Below, piece by piece: positions 4,757 to 22,197 of a stretch of DNA of 22,394 bases. The position numbers were made by a program, and so were the translations under genes. How positions within the stretch are numbered: the stretch's first letter is position 1; each line of letters opens with the position of its first letter. This stretch comes from a virus, in IMG/VR virus record IMGVR_UViG_3300049483_000306, positions 1 to 22,394 of that record; one strand, given 5' to 3'. The notes below the pieces were generated by a model. It did not search any database and was not told where the DNA came from. It saw nothing but the letters and a program-made list of their open reading frames with translations.

Positions 4757-6064
4757 CTAGCCCTCCGTGGGCGCAGGCACCTCGGCAGCCTTCTCGGCCT
4801 CCTCGGTCTTGCGCTTGAACTCCTCCCACTGGTCCTCGGGCATGTGCGGCTGCTCGAGCTTCGCCGCCTCGCGGAGCTCCTCGTAGAAGGCGATCTGCTT
4901 CGCGACGTGCTTGAAGGCGTCGCGGTTCTCGGCCACCCAGTCCTTGGCGTTCGCCGCCAGCGTCTGCCGCAGCGTCTCGTCCTCGATCAGCCGCGAGAGC
5001 TGGGTCTCGAACTCCTGCGGGGTCTTGAACAGCAGGCCCGTCTCACCGTCCACCATCTCGTCGAGATAGGGCCCCGTCGCCTGCGCCAGCGTCGCCGCGG
5101 GCTTCCGCATCACCGAGCCCTCGTAGAACTTGATCGCCGAGCGGCACTGGTTGAAGCGGTTGTCGTTCAGGGGCGCGAGATTGATCTGGTGGCCCATCAT
5201 CACCAGCCGCAGCTTGTACTCCTGGTAGGGGCACCAGTTCACGAACGTGTACCGGTCTGGCGGAATCAGCTCGGTGACCCAGTGGTAGAGCTGGCCCCAG
5301 ATGATCCAGTGAACGTGCGGGTACTTCTTGGTCAGCGCCCCGAGCTGGTCGCGCAGCGGATACCAGTCCTCGTAGTGCGACGCCCCGCCCTGCCACAGGA
5401 TGTTCAGCCGCGACGGATCGTCCGCCAGCCGGACCTGCTCGTAGTGGTCGAACCGCACCAGGTTAGGGAACACCTTGACGCGCCGCGGCATCGTGTCCTG
5501 ATGGATCGCCGCCGCGACCCGCGGGGTCGTACAGGTCACCGCGTCGGACATCTCGACGATGCTGCGGTAGGTCTCGAGCGTGTGGCGATTGCGGGCGAGG
5601 TCGAAGCCGTTCTGGCCGTCCTCCCACAGCACCTTGCGCTGGCCGTTCTGCACCACGCCGATCTTGTGGCCGATCGGGATGTCGCGCCCCTCGTGATCGC
5701 GGATGCCGAGGCCGCGATAGGCGACGTTGTACGGGTTGACGTTGAACAGGTTGTCGTCGGTGTCGACCACCATCGACGGCGACCACTTCCAGACGTCGTC
5801 GCGCTTCGAGGGCAGGAACGACTTGGCGATCCTGATGTTGTGCAGCGTCGAGTCACCGATCGGCTGATAGAGCAGGATCACGTCGGCTTCGCAGAAAGCC
5901 TTGACGCGCTGCTCCTCGCCGATGCCGGCGTCGTTGGTGTCGACGTGGACACGGATCGGCAGCCCCATCTCGTGGGCGGTGTGAAACGGAACGAACACGC
6001 GGTAGTAGTAGCTCGCGTGCCAGTTCCTGGGAACGTAGGTGTACACCGTCAGCGGCTCAGCCAT
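4757..6064 (-). CDS. GT4-like glycosyltransferase
   Basis: This 435-residue protein has the two-domain GT-B pattern. The N-terminal half starts MAEPLTVYTYVPRNWHASYY and contains FCEADVILLYQPIG. The C-terminal half has VKVFPNLVRFDHY, then LNILWQGGASHYEDW, HVHWIIWGQLYHW, and the donor-site-like KFYEGSVMRKPAATLAQ followed by DGETGLLFKTPQEFETQL. The last block is characteristic of GT4 enzymes (glycogen synthase-like fold), which move a sugar from a nucleotide donor. Donor and acceptor are unknown. The C-terminal tail is charged and possibly coiled. The ATG directly follows the TGA of the upstream gene (TGAATG). Its place among tail genes suggests action on the virion or on host surface sugars; this is inference. 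Confidence 0.8.
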   Translation of the reverse strand: MAEPLTVYTYVPRNWHASYYYRVFVPFHTAHEMGLPIRVHVDTNDAGIGEEQRVKAFCEADVILLYQPIGDSTLHNIRIAKSFLPSKRDDVWKWSPSMVVDTDDNLFNVNPYNVAYRGLGIRDHEGRDIPIGHKIGVVQNGQRKVLWEDGQNGFDLARNRHTLETYRSIVEMSDAVTCTTPRVAAAIHQDTMPRRVKVFPNLVRFDHYEQVRLADDPSRLNILWQGGASHYEDWYPLRDQLGALTKKYPHVHWIIWGQLYHWVTELIPPDRYTFVNWCPYQEYKLRLVMMGHQINLAPLNDNRFNQCRSAIKFYEGSVMRKPAATLAQATGPYLDEMVDGETGLLFKTPQEFETQLSRLIEDETLRQTLAANAKDWVAENRDAFKHVAKQIAFYEELREAAKLEQPHMPEDQWEEFKRKTEEAEKAAEVPAPTEG

Positions 6065-13317: not shown

Positions 13318-13490
13318 TTCGCGGGCTCCTTCACGACGATCATCGCGACGATCTCCGGGTTGATGAACATGGTCTCGCCAGGGCCCTCGATGACGTAGGC
13401 CATCCGCGTGTCCTGCGGCGCGTAGACCATCTTCACGTCGAGGAACTCCTGTGGCGGAAACTTCTCGCGAAACGTGACGAGTGCCTTCAC
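13314..13490 (-). CDS. Small hypothetical protein (58 aa)
   Basis: A GTG at 13490 overlaps the methyltransferase stop (GTGA) and the gene ends in a GTGA overlap with the synthetase-like gene, so both boundaries are defined by coupled junctions. The protein begins [20 protein letters not shown] and continues [20 protein letters not shown], ending [11 protein letters not shown]. It looks like a compact alpha/beta protein with alternating hydrophobic strands. I recognise no family. Inclusion rests on the overlaps and a protein-like composition. Confidence 0.65.
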
Positions 13491-14680
13491 ACGACACTCA
13501 CGATCTCGGGCAGCGGGTACATGAACACCGTCCCGGCGCGGATCAGTTCGTGCTCGCGGACGTCGAACTCCTTCTTAAACGCCCACGGCAGCACCAGCAC
13601 CTGGGGCGGCTTCGCGGCCCGCAGCTCCTCCTCGGTCTTGATCGGCAGCCAGGATCCGACCATCTTCAGGCCATGCTTCTCGGGGTTGCGGTCAGCCACC
13701 GCCTCGAACTGCTGGCAGAAGCCGAGGTACTGCAGCAGCACCGTGCCCTTGGTCGAGGCTCCGTAGCACCACGTCTGGCCCGAGTGCATGTCGAGCGTGT
13801 GCAGCATCCGCTCGCGCCAGCGCGGGATCCGCTGGCAGAAGTCCTCGAGCTTCTCCGCGAAGTCGGGGCCCTCGGCCTCGAGCAGGCCCCCCAGCGGAGC
13901 GGGGTGAGCGAGCGGTCCGGTCTTCATCGCCGTCACCCGCATGCTGCCGCCGTTCACGTCGTTGTGCGAGATGTTGGTGATCGTCATCCCGTGCCGCTCG
14001 TAGAGCTTCCGCAGCGTGCCGATGTCGTAGTAGCAGAGGTGCTCGTGACAGATCGCGTCGAAGGCGTTCTGCTCGAGCATCGTCGGGGCGTCGTTGAGCT
14101 GGTTGATCCAGACGCCGTCGGGGGTCAGGCTGTCGCGGATGTCGTCGATGAACGGACCCGGCTCGTCGAGGTCGTAGAACATCGCCGCCGACGTGATCAC
14201 GTCGCAATCGCCGCGCAGCTCGTCGAGCGCCTTGAAGTAGTCGACCACGACGCGGTCGGAGTGTCGCATCAGGTCGGGCGTCAGGTTCCGCGCCGGCTCG
14301 AAGGCCACGCGCTCGAACTCGCGCGGCACGCACGAGAGCAGGTAGCCGTCGTTCGCACCGATGTCCACCCAGACCCCGCCGTGATGGTACGAGAGGCCGT
14401 CGCGCACCAGATCCTCGAGCGCGTAGCGCATCGTGCCGTTGATGCCGCTGCGATACCAGAACTCCCTGAACAGGAGCTCGGGGTTGGTGGTGTGACCGAG
14501 CTGCATCAGGCCGCAGGCGCGGCAGAAGCAGAGGTCGAGAGGCGCCCGTGGCAGCGTCGCGTCCGCCTCCTTCACGAACCGCGGCAGGAACTGGTTGCCG
14601 AGGCTCAGCGCCGGCTGCAGCCCGACACCACCGCATGCACGGCAGGTATCTCGTTCGACGTAGACGGCCCCGGCCGTCAC
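13487..14680 (-). CDS. SAM-dependent sugar C-methyltransferase-like protein
   Basis: The start chosen is the GTG at 14680, which overlaps the terminase stop (GTGA) and has a GGGAG site; an ATG at 14713 would add 11 residues. The 397-residue protein has three parts typical of C-methyltransferases acting on dTDP-type deoxysugars (NovU/TcaB9-like): a zinc-binding N-terminus with CRAC (residues 13-16) and CFCRAC (51-56), a Rossmann methyltransferase domain with VDIGANDG (105-112) and the conserved HEHLCYY block, and a C-terminal domain with [17 protein letters not shown] and [11 protein letters not shown]. It probably adds a methyl group to a nucleotide sugar used by the neighbouring transferases. 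The sugar is unknown. Confidence 0.85.
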
Positions 14681-16449
14681 CGGATCGGCTCCCGCGGCAC
14701 TTCGTCCATCCATTGGCTGACCTCGTCGTCCTCAAAGAGTCGCTGGCTGAGCCCCTCGACCTCGAAGGGCGTGGCTCCGCGGTCGTAGGGAGCCTTCTGC
14801 TGGGAGAAGCGGCGCATCGGCTGGTAGAGCTCGGGCTGGAACGCGTCGGCGTGAGCGTCGGCCCAGTCGATCTTGAGCCGCTGGTTCACCATGTACTGGC
14901 CGATGCGCGCCATCTGCTCCATCAGCCGATCGGAGCCGGGGGAACCCTGCACCACCTTGACGTGCCCGTCAACCCAGAATGAAGCCGCAGCTACCAGACG
15001 TTGGGGCTTACGCGTGCCGCCGCGGCTGAACTGCTGGTAGTTCGGCATCGGGATGTTGACGTCGTGGAACATGTTCTGGAGTGCCAGTTTCCAGACGTCC
15101 TTCAGCCCGGCCATCGCGACTTCGTTGGTGATCGCGAAGATGTGCCGGCCTTGCTTGCGGTAGCGCTGCACCAGCGCCACGATGCGGGCGCCGAACTCCT
15201 CGGCCCGCCACATCGGCGAGCCGTAGCCCTCGATGACGTAGACGTCGCCGGAGCCGTTGCGCGGGTAGCCGTGGACGATGAAGACGGTCTCGTCCTTGCC
15301 GACCCGCTTGCTGCCGTCGTCGAGCGCCAGGTCGCAGGTGATCGCGTACCGCAGGGCGTGCCACGGCACGTCCTTGGCGTCAATCAGGCACTGGCGGATC
15401 TGGTCCTTGGTGATCGGGTTGAACTCCGAGACCGCGGGGTCGTTCATCACCTGCGCGGCGTAGCGCAGTGGGTCGCGGCGCTGGTAGTCGGCGAGGCGCT
15501 TCTCCGGCCAGACCTTGGGAGTGGTAGGCCGGTTCTCCTGATCACGGCCGGCGAGGAAGTAGACGTGCCACTTCCCGTCGGGGTCGGTCGTGATCGAATC
15601 CGTCGGGGACCCGGTCAGGGTCTTGACGCCCTCGTCGCGGAAGGCGATGCCGAAGTGGTCGTCGTCGTCGTAGCGCGTTCCGACCATCACCACCAGGCCG
15701 TCCGACTGGATCACCGGGAACAGCGAGGTCAGCTGGCCGTTGACGGTCTGCAGCCAGTTCTTGTCCGAGACCAGCCGCTCGTAGGAGATCGGGTCGTCGT
15801 AGAAGATCGCGTCGGGGTGGGCGCCCACGATCGAAGTCTCGACCGCGAAGGTGCCGAAGCTCGGGTCCTTCTTCGAGGTGTTCTTGCGCCCGATGTGGAC
15901 GATTTCCTTGCCGGTCCACGTCCGCGCCCCGGTCGACCAGTTGCCGTAGAGCTTGGTGAAGAGGGAGTACGGGTCGGAACCGTCGAGCACCGCCTTGATG
16001 CCGCCGAGCATCTTCGCCGAGAGCTCGCTGCGTTCCGACCCGATGTAGATCGACAGTTCCGGGTCGAGCAGCTGGAGCCAGTTCGATCCGGCCTGCGTGA
16101 TCAGCGTGGTCTTGCCGACCTCGCGGTGAACCACCACGGCGAGGTGCTTCTGCTCGCCGCGACCGTGCTTGCGCTTCGCCAGCCACTCGAGAACGTGACC
16201 CTGGAACCAGTCGGCCAGCGGCTTGTGGACCTCGGGCTCGATCCAGAACTCGCCACGCGGGTTGATCCCCGCCCCGAATCCAGCGTTGAAGAAGGTCCAG
16301 AAGTCCGTCTGGCAGAAGTGGCGGAGCAGCTGGAGCTCATCCTCACTCGGCCACGGGAACTCCTTGTGGGACTCCGTCACCAGTCGCTTCGGCCGGCGGT
16401 TCGCCAGTGTTCGGTGTCCGCGCGGCTTGCTGCCGAGCAACAAGGGCAT
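14677..16449 (-). CDS. terL: Terminase large subunit (TerL)
   Basis: This 590-residue motor ATPase and nuclease packages and cuts phage DNA. It has a Walker A-like HREVGKTT (about residues 108-115), a Walker B DAIFYDD (213-219), the coupling motif MVGTRY (255-260) and a C-terminal RNase H-like nuclease starting at CDLALDDG (372-379) with later acidic residues in DWADAHADAF. The ATG at 16449 has a GGAGGG site about six bases upstream, but it overlaps the small terminase gene by 107 bases; a GTG at 16380 is an alternative with a weaker site. The gene follows the small terminase and precedes a glycan gene rather than the portal directly, which is unusual. Identification is strong. Confidence 0.92.
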   Translation of the reverse strand: MPLLLGSKPRGHRTLANRRPKRLVTESHKEFPWPSEDELQLLRHFCQTDFWTFFNAGFGAGINPRGEFWIEPEVHKPLADWFQGHVLEWLAKRKHGRGEQKHLAVVVHREVGKTTLITQAGSNWLQLLDPELSIYIGSERSELSAKMLGGIKAVLDGSDPYSLFTKLYGNWSTGARTWTGKEIVHIGRKNTSKKDPSFGTFAVETSIVGAHPDAIFYDDPISYERLVSDKNWLQTVNGQLTSLFPVIQSDGLVVMVGTRYDDDDHFGIAFRDEGVKTLTGSPTDSITTDPDGKWHVYFLAGRDQENRPTTPKVWPEKRLADYQRRDPLRYAAQVMNDPAVSEFNPITKDQIRQCLIDAKDVPWHALRYAITCDLALDDGSKRVGKDETVFIVHGYPRNGSGDVYVIEGYGSPMWRAEEFGARIVALVQRYRKQGRHIFAITNEVAMAGLKDVWKLALQNMFHDVNIPMPNYQQFSRGGTRKPQRLVAAASFWVDGHVKVVQGSPGSDRLMEQMARIGQYMVNQRLKIDWADAHADAFQPELYQPMRRFSQQKAPYDRGATPFEVEGLSQRLFEDDEVSQWMDEVPREPIR

Positions 16450-17929: not shown

Positions 17930-18529
17930 CTAGTCCCTCACCCAGATGTCGTCGAGCACCGAGCGCACCGCAAGGTGATAGCCGGGCGGCGGCTGGTGGG
18001 TCCCGTCGCGGTCTTCGCAGACGATGATCTTGGGCTTCCAGCGCTCGATGTCGAACCCCTTGAGCACCTCGAGCTCGTAACCCTCGACGTCGATCGAGAC
18101 GTAGTCGAGGCCGGGGAATCCGGCCTCCTCGACCAACCGATCGAGGCGCCGAACGACAGTCTGTACCGTTCCCATAGGGGACGCATCGTTCCCGTATCTC
18201 GGGTCGATCACCAGCCCGGAGGCCGATGGATACGGATACCCGCCGCAGTAGGTGAACGGCGCCTGTTCGATGTCCTCCGCGCCGCAGGCGGCGACTCTCC
18301 ACAGCTTCCGGTATTTGCGGCCGTCCTCTTCCAGCAGGGGGTTGGCCTCGATGCAGAGGACATTCCAGCCGGCGACCTCCAGCCAGTGGGTGTTGCTGGC
18401 GAAGATCCCGTCGTTGGCCCCGACATCCACGGCGTAGCCGAACTGGGGGAGGACGTCGAGCAGGTTCTCGACGATCCATCGGTCGTCGCCCATGTCCGAC
18501 CTGAACTCTGGATAATCCTTGAGGATCAC
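17930..18529 (-). CDS. FkbM-family methyltransferase
   Basis: A GTG at 18529 overlaps the glycosyltransferase stop (GTGA). The 199-residue protein has the FkbM (Methyltransf_21) pattern: SAM-binding VDVGANDG (residues 34-41), EANP (61-64) at the end of strand two, and the conserved LDYVSIDVEGYELEVLKGFD (about 141-160). FkbM enzymes put O-methyl groups on sugars or polyketides. It sits between a glycosyltransferase gene and a zinc-binding gene, so a sugar O-methylation step is the natural reading. The acceptor is unknown. Confidence 0.85.
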   Translation of the reverse strand: MILKDYPEFRSDMGDDRWIVENLLDVLPQFGYAVDVGANDGIFASNTHWLEVAGWNVLCIEANPLLEEDGRKYRKLWRVAACGAEDIEQAPFTYCGGYPYPSASGLVIDPRYGNDASPMGTVQTVVRRLDRLVEEAGFPGLDYVSIDVEGYELEVLKGFDIERWKPKIIVCEDRDGTHQPPPGYHLAVRSVLDDIWVRD

Positions 18530-21277: not shown

Positions 21278-21306
21278 TTGACTGGGGGTGGGCCGGGGCG
21301 TAGGTT
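21278..21306 (+). promoter_or_regulatory. Sigma70-like promoter of the plus-strand replication unit
   Basis: TTGACT (21278-21283) and TAGGTT (21301-21306) are 17 bases apart, on a locally C/G-rich spacer. The -35 box differs from consensus at one base. Transcription would begin near 21313, exactly at the first arm of the structured leader, and read into the gene at 21430. Confidence 0.6.
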
Positions 21307-21312
21307 GCGCGG

Positions 21313-21420
21313 CGCGAGGACGGATGTTCGGCTGAGAGTGGTGCCCGGGGTAGGGTCCGTCCTCGCAGACTGGCTCCTACCGACCTACCCGGCGCCACTC
21401 TCAGCCGTTTTCGTTTCGGA
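21313..21420 (+). ncRNA. Structured leader or small RNA with interleaved arms A-B-A'-B'
   Basis: Arm A (GCGAGGACGGA, 21314-21324) is exactly complementary to A' (TCCGTCCTCGC, 21356-21366). Arm B (21329-21345, core GGCTGAGAGTGG) pairs over 17 positions, one a G-U wobble, with B' (21391-21407, core CCACTCTCAGCC); an inner GGGTAGG (21348-21354) pairs with CCTACCC (21384-21390). A encloses B, and B-B' encloses A', so the two helices are either mutually exclusive or a pseudoknot; the 4-base link between A and B makes a full pseudoknot unlikely. B-B' ends in UUUUCGUUU. Predicted start is near 21313. It may be an attenuator for the replication gene or a stand-alone RNA of about 105 bases. Confidence 0.55.
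21329..21416 (+). terminator. Intrinsic terminator-like hairpin directly before the replication gene
   Basis: The long B-B' stem (17 pairs plus an inner 7) is followed at once by TTTTCGTTT (21408-21416). The ribosome site GGAG (21418-21421) and ATG (21430) follow directly, so the same structure could affect both transcription and ribosome access. On the minus strand no U tract follows, so it is oriented for plus-strand transcripts. Confidence 0.6.
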
Positions 21421-21429
21421 GAGCCCGCC

Positions 21430-22197
21430 ATGTCCAGGGAAGGACCGCCGAGTTTCCAGTTCTACCCGCGCGACTGGATCGTGGACACCCGGAAGCTGAC
21501 CCGTGACCAGCGCTGCCGCTACCACGACGCCCTGTGCGAGTCCTGGGTGTCCGGCTCCTACGGGGTCGCCGCGGAAGACCAGTGGCGCGACTGGCTGGAC
21601 TACACGCCCGAGCAGTGGGATCTCGAGCGGTCGGCGTTCGTTCGCCTGTTCTCCGTCCGGGAGGATGGGCAGTGGGTCCAGAAGCGGATGGTCGAGGTCC
21701 GCGAAGAGCAGTTGCGGCGGTACGAGCGATCGCAGGCCGGGGCGGAGCTGACCAATCAGCGACGGTGGGGCGATCGGGTAGCGATCGGTGAGCGATCGGG
21801 CGGCGGTCGCAGTGCGGTCACCCCTGCCTCTGCCTCTGCCTTTGCCTTAGAGAATCTAAACACTAACCCCCCCTCCCCCCTTGAACCGGCTCCCTCCGGT
21901 CGCGATGGTGTTCCTGTCAGGAGAAAGTCAAGGAAACCACCCCCTGAGCACCCTGACTTCCCGGCGTTCTACTCCGCCTACCCCCGGCACGAGGCGCCCA
22001 GGAGGGCAGCGAGTGCCTTCGCCCAGGCGCTGAAGCGCCACCCGAGCTACAAGGGGTCGGACCTGATCCAGGCGGCGGAGCTCTTCGCCGGCGAGAAGGC
22101 GGGCAAGGACCCCGAATTCCTACCCTATCCGGCGAGCTGGTTGAACGCCGACAGTTTCCGCAAGTACTTCGACGAGGAGGAGCCCGATGTCGCGTGA
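21430..22197 (+). CDS. DUF1376-like replication protein (255 aa)
   Basis: The N-terminus PSFQFYPRDWIVDTRKLTRD followed by QRCRYHDALCESWVSGSYG has the DUF1376 pattern: a YPRDW motif, then an LT-x-x-QR-x-Y-x-x-L-x-x-x-W helix. Such winged-helix-like proteins occur in phage replication modules, often as initiators or helicase loaders. A low-complexity linker (about residues 105-160) carries the DNA repeats described separately. The C-terminal part (FPAFYSAYPRHEAPRRAASA, then LIQAAELFAGEKAGKD and YPASWLNADSFRKYFDEE) resembles the C-terminal domain seen in related replication proteins. The ATG at 21430 has a GGAG site eight bases upstream. It is the first plus-strand gene and overlaps the next by 11 bases. 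Confidence 0.7.
   Translation: MSREGPPSFQFYPRDWIVDTRKLTRDQRCRYHDALCESWVSGSYGVAAEDQWRDWLDYTPEQWDLERSAFVRLFSVREDGQWVQKRMVEVREEQLRRYERSQAGAELTNQRRWGDRVAIGERSGGGRSAVTPASASAFALENLNTNPPSPLEPAPSGRDGVPVRRKSRKPPPEHPDFPAFYSAYPRHEAPRRAASAFAQALKRHPSYKGSDLIQAAELFAGEKAGKDPEFLPYPASWLNADSFRKYFDEEEPDVA
21759..21824 (+). repeat. Tandem 11-bp repeats (iteron-like) inside the replication gene
   Basis: Units start at 21770, 21781, 21792, 21803 and 21814, exactly 11 bases apart: GCGATCGGGTA, GCGATCGGTGA, GCGATCGGGCG, GCGGTCGCAGT, GCGGTCACCCC. A degenerate unit (GCGACGGTGGG) starts at 21759 and another good match (GCGATCGCAGG) at 21726, in the same 11-base register. Because 11 is not a multiple of 3, the encoded peptide is not repeated, so selection acts on DNA. 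Four of the matches contain GATC. Confidence 0.6.
21825..21882 (+). other. Pyrimidine-rich, locally AT-rich stretch after the iterons (possible unwinding element)
   Basis: Four 6-base units (TGCCTC, TGCCTC, TGCCTT, TGCCTT; 21825-21848) precede TTAGAGAATCTAAACACTAA (21847-21866), one of the most AT-rich short stretches in this GC-rich region, and a run of C and T to 21882. A strand-biased, easily melted segment beside iterons is the layout of a replication origin. The hexamer is in frame and encodes Ala-Ser/Ala-Phe, so it could also be simple linker. Confidence 0.4.

Follow-up and report, generated by a model that had tools for sequence, protein, structure and literature searches.

A leader RNA of two crossed helices in front of the early genes of uncultivated phages is probably an undescribed RNA switch

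Two long helices that cross each other in the order A-B-A'-B' lie between an early promoter and the first gene after it in the genome fragment of an uncultivated tailed phage, and the same layout, built from largely different helix sequences, occurs in 13 other uncultivated phages, which makes 14 elements in total, all on metagenomic contigs. This crossed-helix leader is probably a real, so far undescribed RNA switch. As to its role, we see about an even chance of transcription attenuation in cis at the head of the early (replication) operon, and we prefer this reading because it covers the crossed arm order and the order of folding as well as the U run and the position ahead of the first gene.

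The whole stretch of DNA analyzed here (the window), 22,394 bases long, makes up one complete IMG/VR record. Its minus strand carries SU10-type portal and capsid genes, and the leader sits between this structural block and a plus-strand gene for a replication-organizer or primosomal protein of 255 aa (21430..22197, ATG at 21430), the first gene 3' of the leader. The protein matched phrog_9327 (primosomal protein; E 3.7e-17) and phrog_270 (replication initiation; E 2.7e-8), as well as DUF1376 with an E value of 1.7e-4, which is below the Pfam cut-off. Inside the gene, at 21769-21802, are iteron-like direct repeats GCGATCGG (gcgatcgggtagcgatcggtgagcgatcgg), and by analogy with lambda O these possibly mark an origin within the replication gene. 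The minus strand also holds, at 4757-6064, 13487-14713, and 17930-18529, one glycosyltransferase-like gene and two ORFs that look, on inspection by eye, like sugar-related methyltransferases. Neither the window DNA (by BLAST) nor its replication protein (by tblastn) gave a match among isolate phages, and the contigs of the closest capsid/terminase relatives (L008/L047 and L009/L048; L-numbers are contig labels) stop short of the leader region.

Read directly from the plus strand, the promoter consists of a -35 hexamer, TTGACT (21278..21283), and a -10 hexamer, TAGGTT (21301..21306), separated by 17 nt. Seven nucleotides further on lies arm A, GCGAGGACGGA (21314-21324, or 21314..21325 with a U-G pair), which would form the 5' end of the RNA. 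It is followed by arm B, CGGCTGAGAGTGGTGCC (21329..21345), by the 5' arm of an inner helix, GGGTAGG (21348..21354), by arm A', TCCGTCCTCGC (21356-21366, or 21355..21366 with the U-G pair), by the spacer L3 from A' to B' (21367..21390), and by arm B', GGCGCCACTCTCAGCCG (21391..21407). Directly 3' of B' is a U run, TTTTCGTTT (21408..21416), the predicted termination zone, and then come the ribosome-binding site GGAG (21418..21421) and the ATG. A and A' form 11 Watson-Crick pairs (12 counting U21325-G21355), while B and B', the 5' and 3' arms of a terminator-like hairpin that holds A' inside its loop, form 17 pairs, one of which is U-G. The inner helix lengthens B-B' in the minimum free energy (MFE) structure and has two alternative registers, 21348-21354/21384-21390 (7 bp) or 21349-21354/21376-21381, because CCTACC occurs twice in L3. 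An earlier note on this DNA had described the two interleaved pairs of arms and the inner helix, and all of its coordinates proved correct to the base; its reading of B-B' as a terminator-like stem running into a U run, a ribosome site, and the ATG of the replication gene also agrees with the sequence. The promoter scores 8/12 against the consensus and was thus unlisted by a consensus scanner with a cut-off of 9. We call it because the same promoter recurs in relatives, which have a TTGAC/TTGAT box about 35 nt 5' of A. The note's placing of the RNA 5' end at A is supported as well.

To assess the fold quantitatively, we compared it with shuffled sequences. The segment 21313-21420 was far stabler than its shuffles, with an MFE of -63.3 kcal/mol (z = -5.2) that 0 of 200 shuffles equaled. 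The summed stacking energy of the interleaved A-A' and B-B' helices was -66.7 kcal/mol, compared to -34.8 ± 4.1 kcal/mol for 4000 dinucleotide shuffles, the best of which reached -53.0 kcal/mol, so that none came near the window value. Within the whole window, the A-B-A'-B' arrangement at 21314-21407 was the top interleaved pair.

Relatives were gathered from viral contigs via their capsid, terminase, and replication proteins. In an initial scan for crossed stems, the window came out top, and similar sites, different in sequence, appeared directly upstream of other replication genes. In a homology-based test, we took the 260 nt 5' of every replication-gene homologue and scored them against 100 dinucleotide shuffles; 11 of 39 distinct upstream regions (window included) beat at least 99 of the 100, with A directly after a TTGAC/TTGAT promoter. 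No shuffle was as good for the window, L064, L058 (= L067), L052, L059, L074, L054, L084, L089, and L003, and one of the 100 was as good for L060. L094 also beats its shuffles but has its hairpin upstream of a promoter and was excluded from the count. A descriptor scan of 2.8 Mb of DNA, which required a promoter, crossed stems, and a U-rich tail, returned 13 matches, compared to 1 in the same quantity of shuffled DNA. A starts 5-8 nt after the -10 box in ten clear matches; the three others (L008, a second L074 site, and L076) look like background. The descriptor scan confirmed L062, L050, and L095, which a looser scan had first shown. These three were found by a scan that selects for the features, and only the homology-found set is without that bias.

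The elements share a common order: TTGAC/TTGAT, 16-18 nt, the -10 box, 5-8 nt, A, L1, B, L2, A', L3, B', usually a U run, and the first gene. Helix A has 7-16 bp and helix B 12-27 bp. L1 measures 3 nt in four elements (window, L054, L062, and L058) and 11-25 nt in seven others, L3 measures 19-31 nt in 9 of the 14, and B' lies about 15-30 nt from the first start codon in most. The -10 box of L084 is irregular, and in L003 the start of A shifts if an outer helix part (GGTGAAGGG/CCCTTCACC) is counted. At least 5 U in the 8 nt right after B' were present in 8 of 14 elements, against a background of 1%; L058, L060, and L074 have U-rich sequence within the 3' arm, and a U run is absent from L059 and L089. 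L084 (1880-1975) and L089 (1900-1990) both contain GAAATTTCC in L1 despite different helices, and this is perhaps a subfamily motif.

Covariation among relatives, which the note had proposed as the test of its structure, was positive for both helices. In an alignment of the window, L054, L062, and L052, compensatory changes on both sides were found in 4 of 11 pairs of the A helix, and 97.5% of cells were paired compared to 35-43% when the arms were slid; in an alignment of L064, L060, and L074, both-side changes were found in 4 of 23 pairs of the B helix, with 97.1% of cells paired compared to 32-45%. These sets are small (4 and 3 sequences), and shuffled 3' letters reached the score in 17/500 (A) and 4/500 (B) cases. 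Alignment A4 had lost the register of B, and the B covariation was therefore counted on A5 and by helix register. Stronger evidence than the alignments comes from whole helices that have been replaced with complementarity kept across the 14 phages.

The pairing also bears on whether the element works as RNA. The 14 elements have 407 pairs, including 59 G-U pairs, and in 14/14 pairing is better on the sense than on the antisense strand (e.g., -66.2 versus -34.4 for L054), which is a hallmark of RNA. These differences are large, with some selection bias since the elements were picked on the sense strand. On this G-U content and strand asymmetry we reject a DNA-level element, namely a replication origin or an operator of inverted repeats, which we regard as extremely unlikely. 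The leader does adjoin a replication-organizer gene with internal iteron-like repeats, as such an element might, but its layout is tied to the promoter start and it also precedes a ParB-like gene.

That ParB-like gene (L062, 4546-5277, minus strand) is not a replication organizer and is the first gene after the leader of its contig. In L050 and L095 the leader ends about 0.7 kb and about 0.2 kb, respectively, before the next gene, with no adjoining ribosome site; since the U run of L095 lies about 0.2 kb from the gene, it is not merely ribosome-site sequence. The link to the replication gene drawn in the earlier note is thus not a strict one, given L062, L095, and L050. Conversely, many relatives have the replication gene and no leader: L053 (5780-5860) has the same TTGACG promoter directly before its replication gene without a leader. 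L049, which has a replication gene of the same family, is a borderline case with only weak crossed stems, an approximately 100-nt spacer, and no U run. We conclude that the element tracks the early promoter, not the replication gene. Several of the replication proteins (L064 2834-3733, L067 2010-2807, L052 598-1395, L059 2535-3302, and L049 1450-2298) look chimeric, with unrelated N-terminal domains, either DUF1376-like or of the FGKxFxSLWDG type, joined to one conserved C-terminal domain.

Further searches marked out the range of the element. L129 and L130, further relatives of L084, had no element. The descriptor scan gave no match in isolate loci with related capsid, terminase, or replication genes (P26218, phiM5, MW202481, TL, and EBPR podovirus 2) or in the parts scanned of the isolates ArV2, BrutonGaster, Pam1, and P19250A, and no leader-bearing relative was found among bacterial genome contigs scanned with the terminase and replication protein. 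A degenerate DNA pattern for the GCGAGG subfamily, run on all viral contigs, hit 26 places and found the element in only two that were already known. Similar GC-rich inverted-repeat clusters in L147, L148, and L151 (GCGAGGGG...CCCCTCGCAGCAGG) matched this pattern and have another layout.

The leader could also be a phage small RNA, as the note had allowed, which we consider possible, if on the unlikely side: B-B' would be an ordinary terminator and A-A' would close the 5' end, giving a stable crossed fold of about 100 nt that acts in trans on host or phage, while read-through would feed the operon. Both ends of the leader are paired and its end is strongly terminator-like, the elements of L095 and L050 end about 0.2-0.7 kb before the next gene, and phages and satellites are known to make noncoding RNAs in very large amounts (PMC7567579), all of which we counted in favor of this possibility. 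It fits less well with a B' arm within about 15-30 nt of the first start codon in most elements. Moreover, no unpaired sequence is conserved across clades, so that no common target or protein site is visible, and the examined parts of the same contigs contain no second copy of an arm, only isolated 11-mers. A leader that protects the 5' end of the early mRNA, with a hairpin blocking 5' decay, or that insulates the ribosome site, with the U-rich stretch as a standby site, would agree with the start of A at +1 in nearly all elements and with the end of B' shortly before the ribosome site in most. However, one hairpin would suffice for this and two crossed ones would be unneeded, L095 and L050 lack a ribosome site beside the element, and a U run exactly at the end of the stem is terminator-like; we therefore hold this explanation to be unlikely.

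We then considered the order in which the helices would form. In MFE folds of the growing window transcript, A-A' is present alone at 49-84 nt and B-B' from a length of 86 nt on, when the last 8 nt of B' have still to be made. Across the elements, in prefix folds that ignore pseudoknots, A-A' was the first MFE helix in 14/14, and B-B' took over within B' or a few bases later in 13/14; the exception is L050, where B-B' is weaker than A-A' and never wins. With 14 nt assumed to sit inside the polymerase, transcripts reaching the end of the U run just favored B-B' in seven elements, A-A' in six, and neither in L059. This modeling suggests a contest between A-A' and B-B' near the decision point.

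If the leader is an attenuator, transcription would start at the first base of A, and once A' had left the polymerase, the 5' end would fold back as hairpin A-A', whose loop would hold B. B' would emerge about 25 nt later and could form B-B', a long GC-rich hairpin that together with the U run would make an intrinsic terminator ahead of the ribosome site. A-A' and B-B' have no base in common and would compete by crossing. With A-A' closed, the strand entering the polymerase could not fully wind round B, chiefly at the base of the hairpin needed for termination, because by helix geometry the 3-nt L1 cannot span 17 bp and the 3' side would be held by the polymerase; A-A' would thereby favor read-through. 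If, on the other hand, A were kept from A', B-B' would form and transcription would end near 21411-21416, with an RNA of about 100 nt as its product. We thus infer that B-B' would terminate, that A-A' would prevent termination, and that some factor would shift the balance. In the seven elements with an L1 of 11-25 nt, there is steric room for both helices to coexist as a complete pseudoknot, and exclusion is therefore not forced everywhere. Of the mutually exclusive helices claimed in the note, the formation of A-A' and then of B-B' is accordingly retained as a prediction, while strict exclusion would be imposed only in some elements.

The predicted folds also bear on what the terminated leader might do. 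After closure of B-B', the predicted probability of A-A' is near 0 and A is about 40-90% unpaired in 13/14, with A as a 5' tail and A' in the loop. The terminated leader of about 100 nt might thus be its own trans-acting repressor, pairing with A or A' of a new transcript, blocking A-A', and forcing termination, a proposal that we judge improbable. It would explain clade-specific A/A' sequences with one layout, and, if true, it would mean an RNA-only feedback and a block against a second phage of like sequence. A search of 19 records turned up no tyrosine integrase, and lysogenic immunity is therefore not a likely setting.

Comparison with known systems places the attenuator reading most closely beside transcription attenuators. 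The leader resembles these in its promoter-proximal, noncoding position between the promoter and the first gene, in an early hairpin predicted to oppose a later GC-rich hairpin with a U run (directly adjoining in the window, and lacking its U run in L059 and L089), and in predicted sequential folding. The two hairpins of a usual attenuator have an arm in common and replace each other by strand displacement. In contrast, the hairpins of the leader have no base in common, so that crossing (A-B-A'-B') would be their only means of exclusion, and we recognized no leader peptide, ligand, or protein site. In HDV-like ribozymes, the order is P1, P2, P3, P1', P4, P2', to which the leader order of A, B, inner helix, A', spacer, and B' is alike. 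Such a ribozyme was rejected, as the helix lengths vary widely (A 7-16 bp) and there is neither a conserved core nor an Rfam match; cleavage would moreover remove nothing because A sits at +1.

A riboswitch gated by a metabolite or protein, with a conserved binding site, would likewise have alternative helices and a terminator before a gene, and the fluoride (crcB) riboswitch provides a precedent in which a pseudoknot forms first in transcription and competes with an intrinsic terminator (PMC11077080). Unlike the fluoride riboswitch, the leader has helices of 7-16 bp and 12-27 bp and no conserved aptamer core. Conserved unpaired nucleotides were not seen across the 14 elements. A search of the window against Rfam gave nothing at the gathering score, in keeping with the note, which knew of no named RNA family of this form; below that score, up to E 5, only chance matches to long hairpins of the eukaryotic miRNA type appeared. 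We thus find a gated riboswitch very unlikely: of the attenuator and the riboswitch named in the earlier note, the attenuator-like layout was borne out and the metabolite riboswitch was not.

Among phage RNAs, the cis-acting HK022 putRNA lies, like the leader, just 3' of an early promoter (PMC9378689), as would a put-like element whose nascent RNA binds RNA polymerase and confers resistance to later terminators. Put acts on polymerase, is about 70 nt long, and has two stem-loops that are separate and share sequence (PMC9378689). In the leader, by contrast, the helices are crossed, sequences differ between elements with no conservation across clades, and the element carries a terminator-like stem and U run at its own 3' end; we thus consider a put-like action highly improbable. 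In P4 immunity, transcription terminates prematurely when the CI RNA pairs with seqA and seqC, both located in the replication operon's leader (PMC4825925), which is similar in principle to the leader acting as its own repressor in trans. We compared the leader with P4 CI and with c4 RNA of P1 and P7. CI is processed from the transcript and pairs with seqA upstream and seqC downstream, whereas our leader has a terminator-like stem running into a U run, two helices that are independent of each other, and a setting of 19 records without a tyrosine integrase. No Rfam match to a C4-type RNA family was obtained in the window, either at the gathering score or below threshold. The openly licensed literature yielded attenuators, put RNA, P4/c4 RNAs, and pseudoknotted riboswitches, and no A-B-A'-B' phage terminator leader.

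Together, these comparisons suggest that the leader is of an attenuator-like kind, with crossed, non-overlapping helices as the new part. If so, it would represent a phage leader RNA family that is recognized by layout and is missed by sequence searches such as Rfam and BLAST. It would also be a natural transcription switch of two crossed helices, in which the topology of cotranscriptional folding, and not strand exchange, decides between stop and go. Placed on what are likely the first-expressed genes, such a leader would time the onset of replication in phages that have no isolates.
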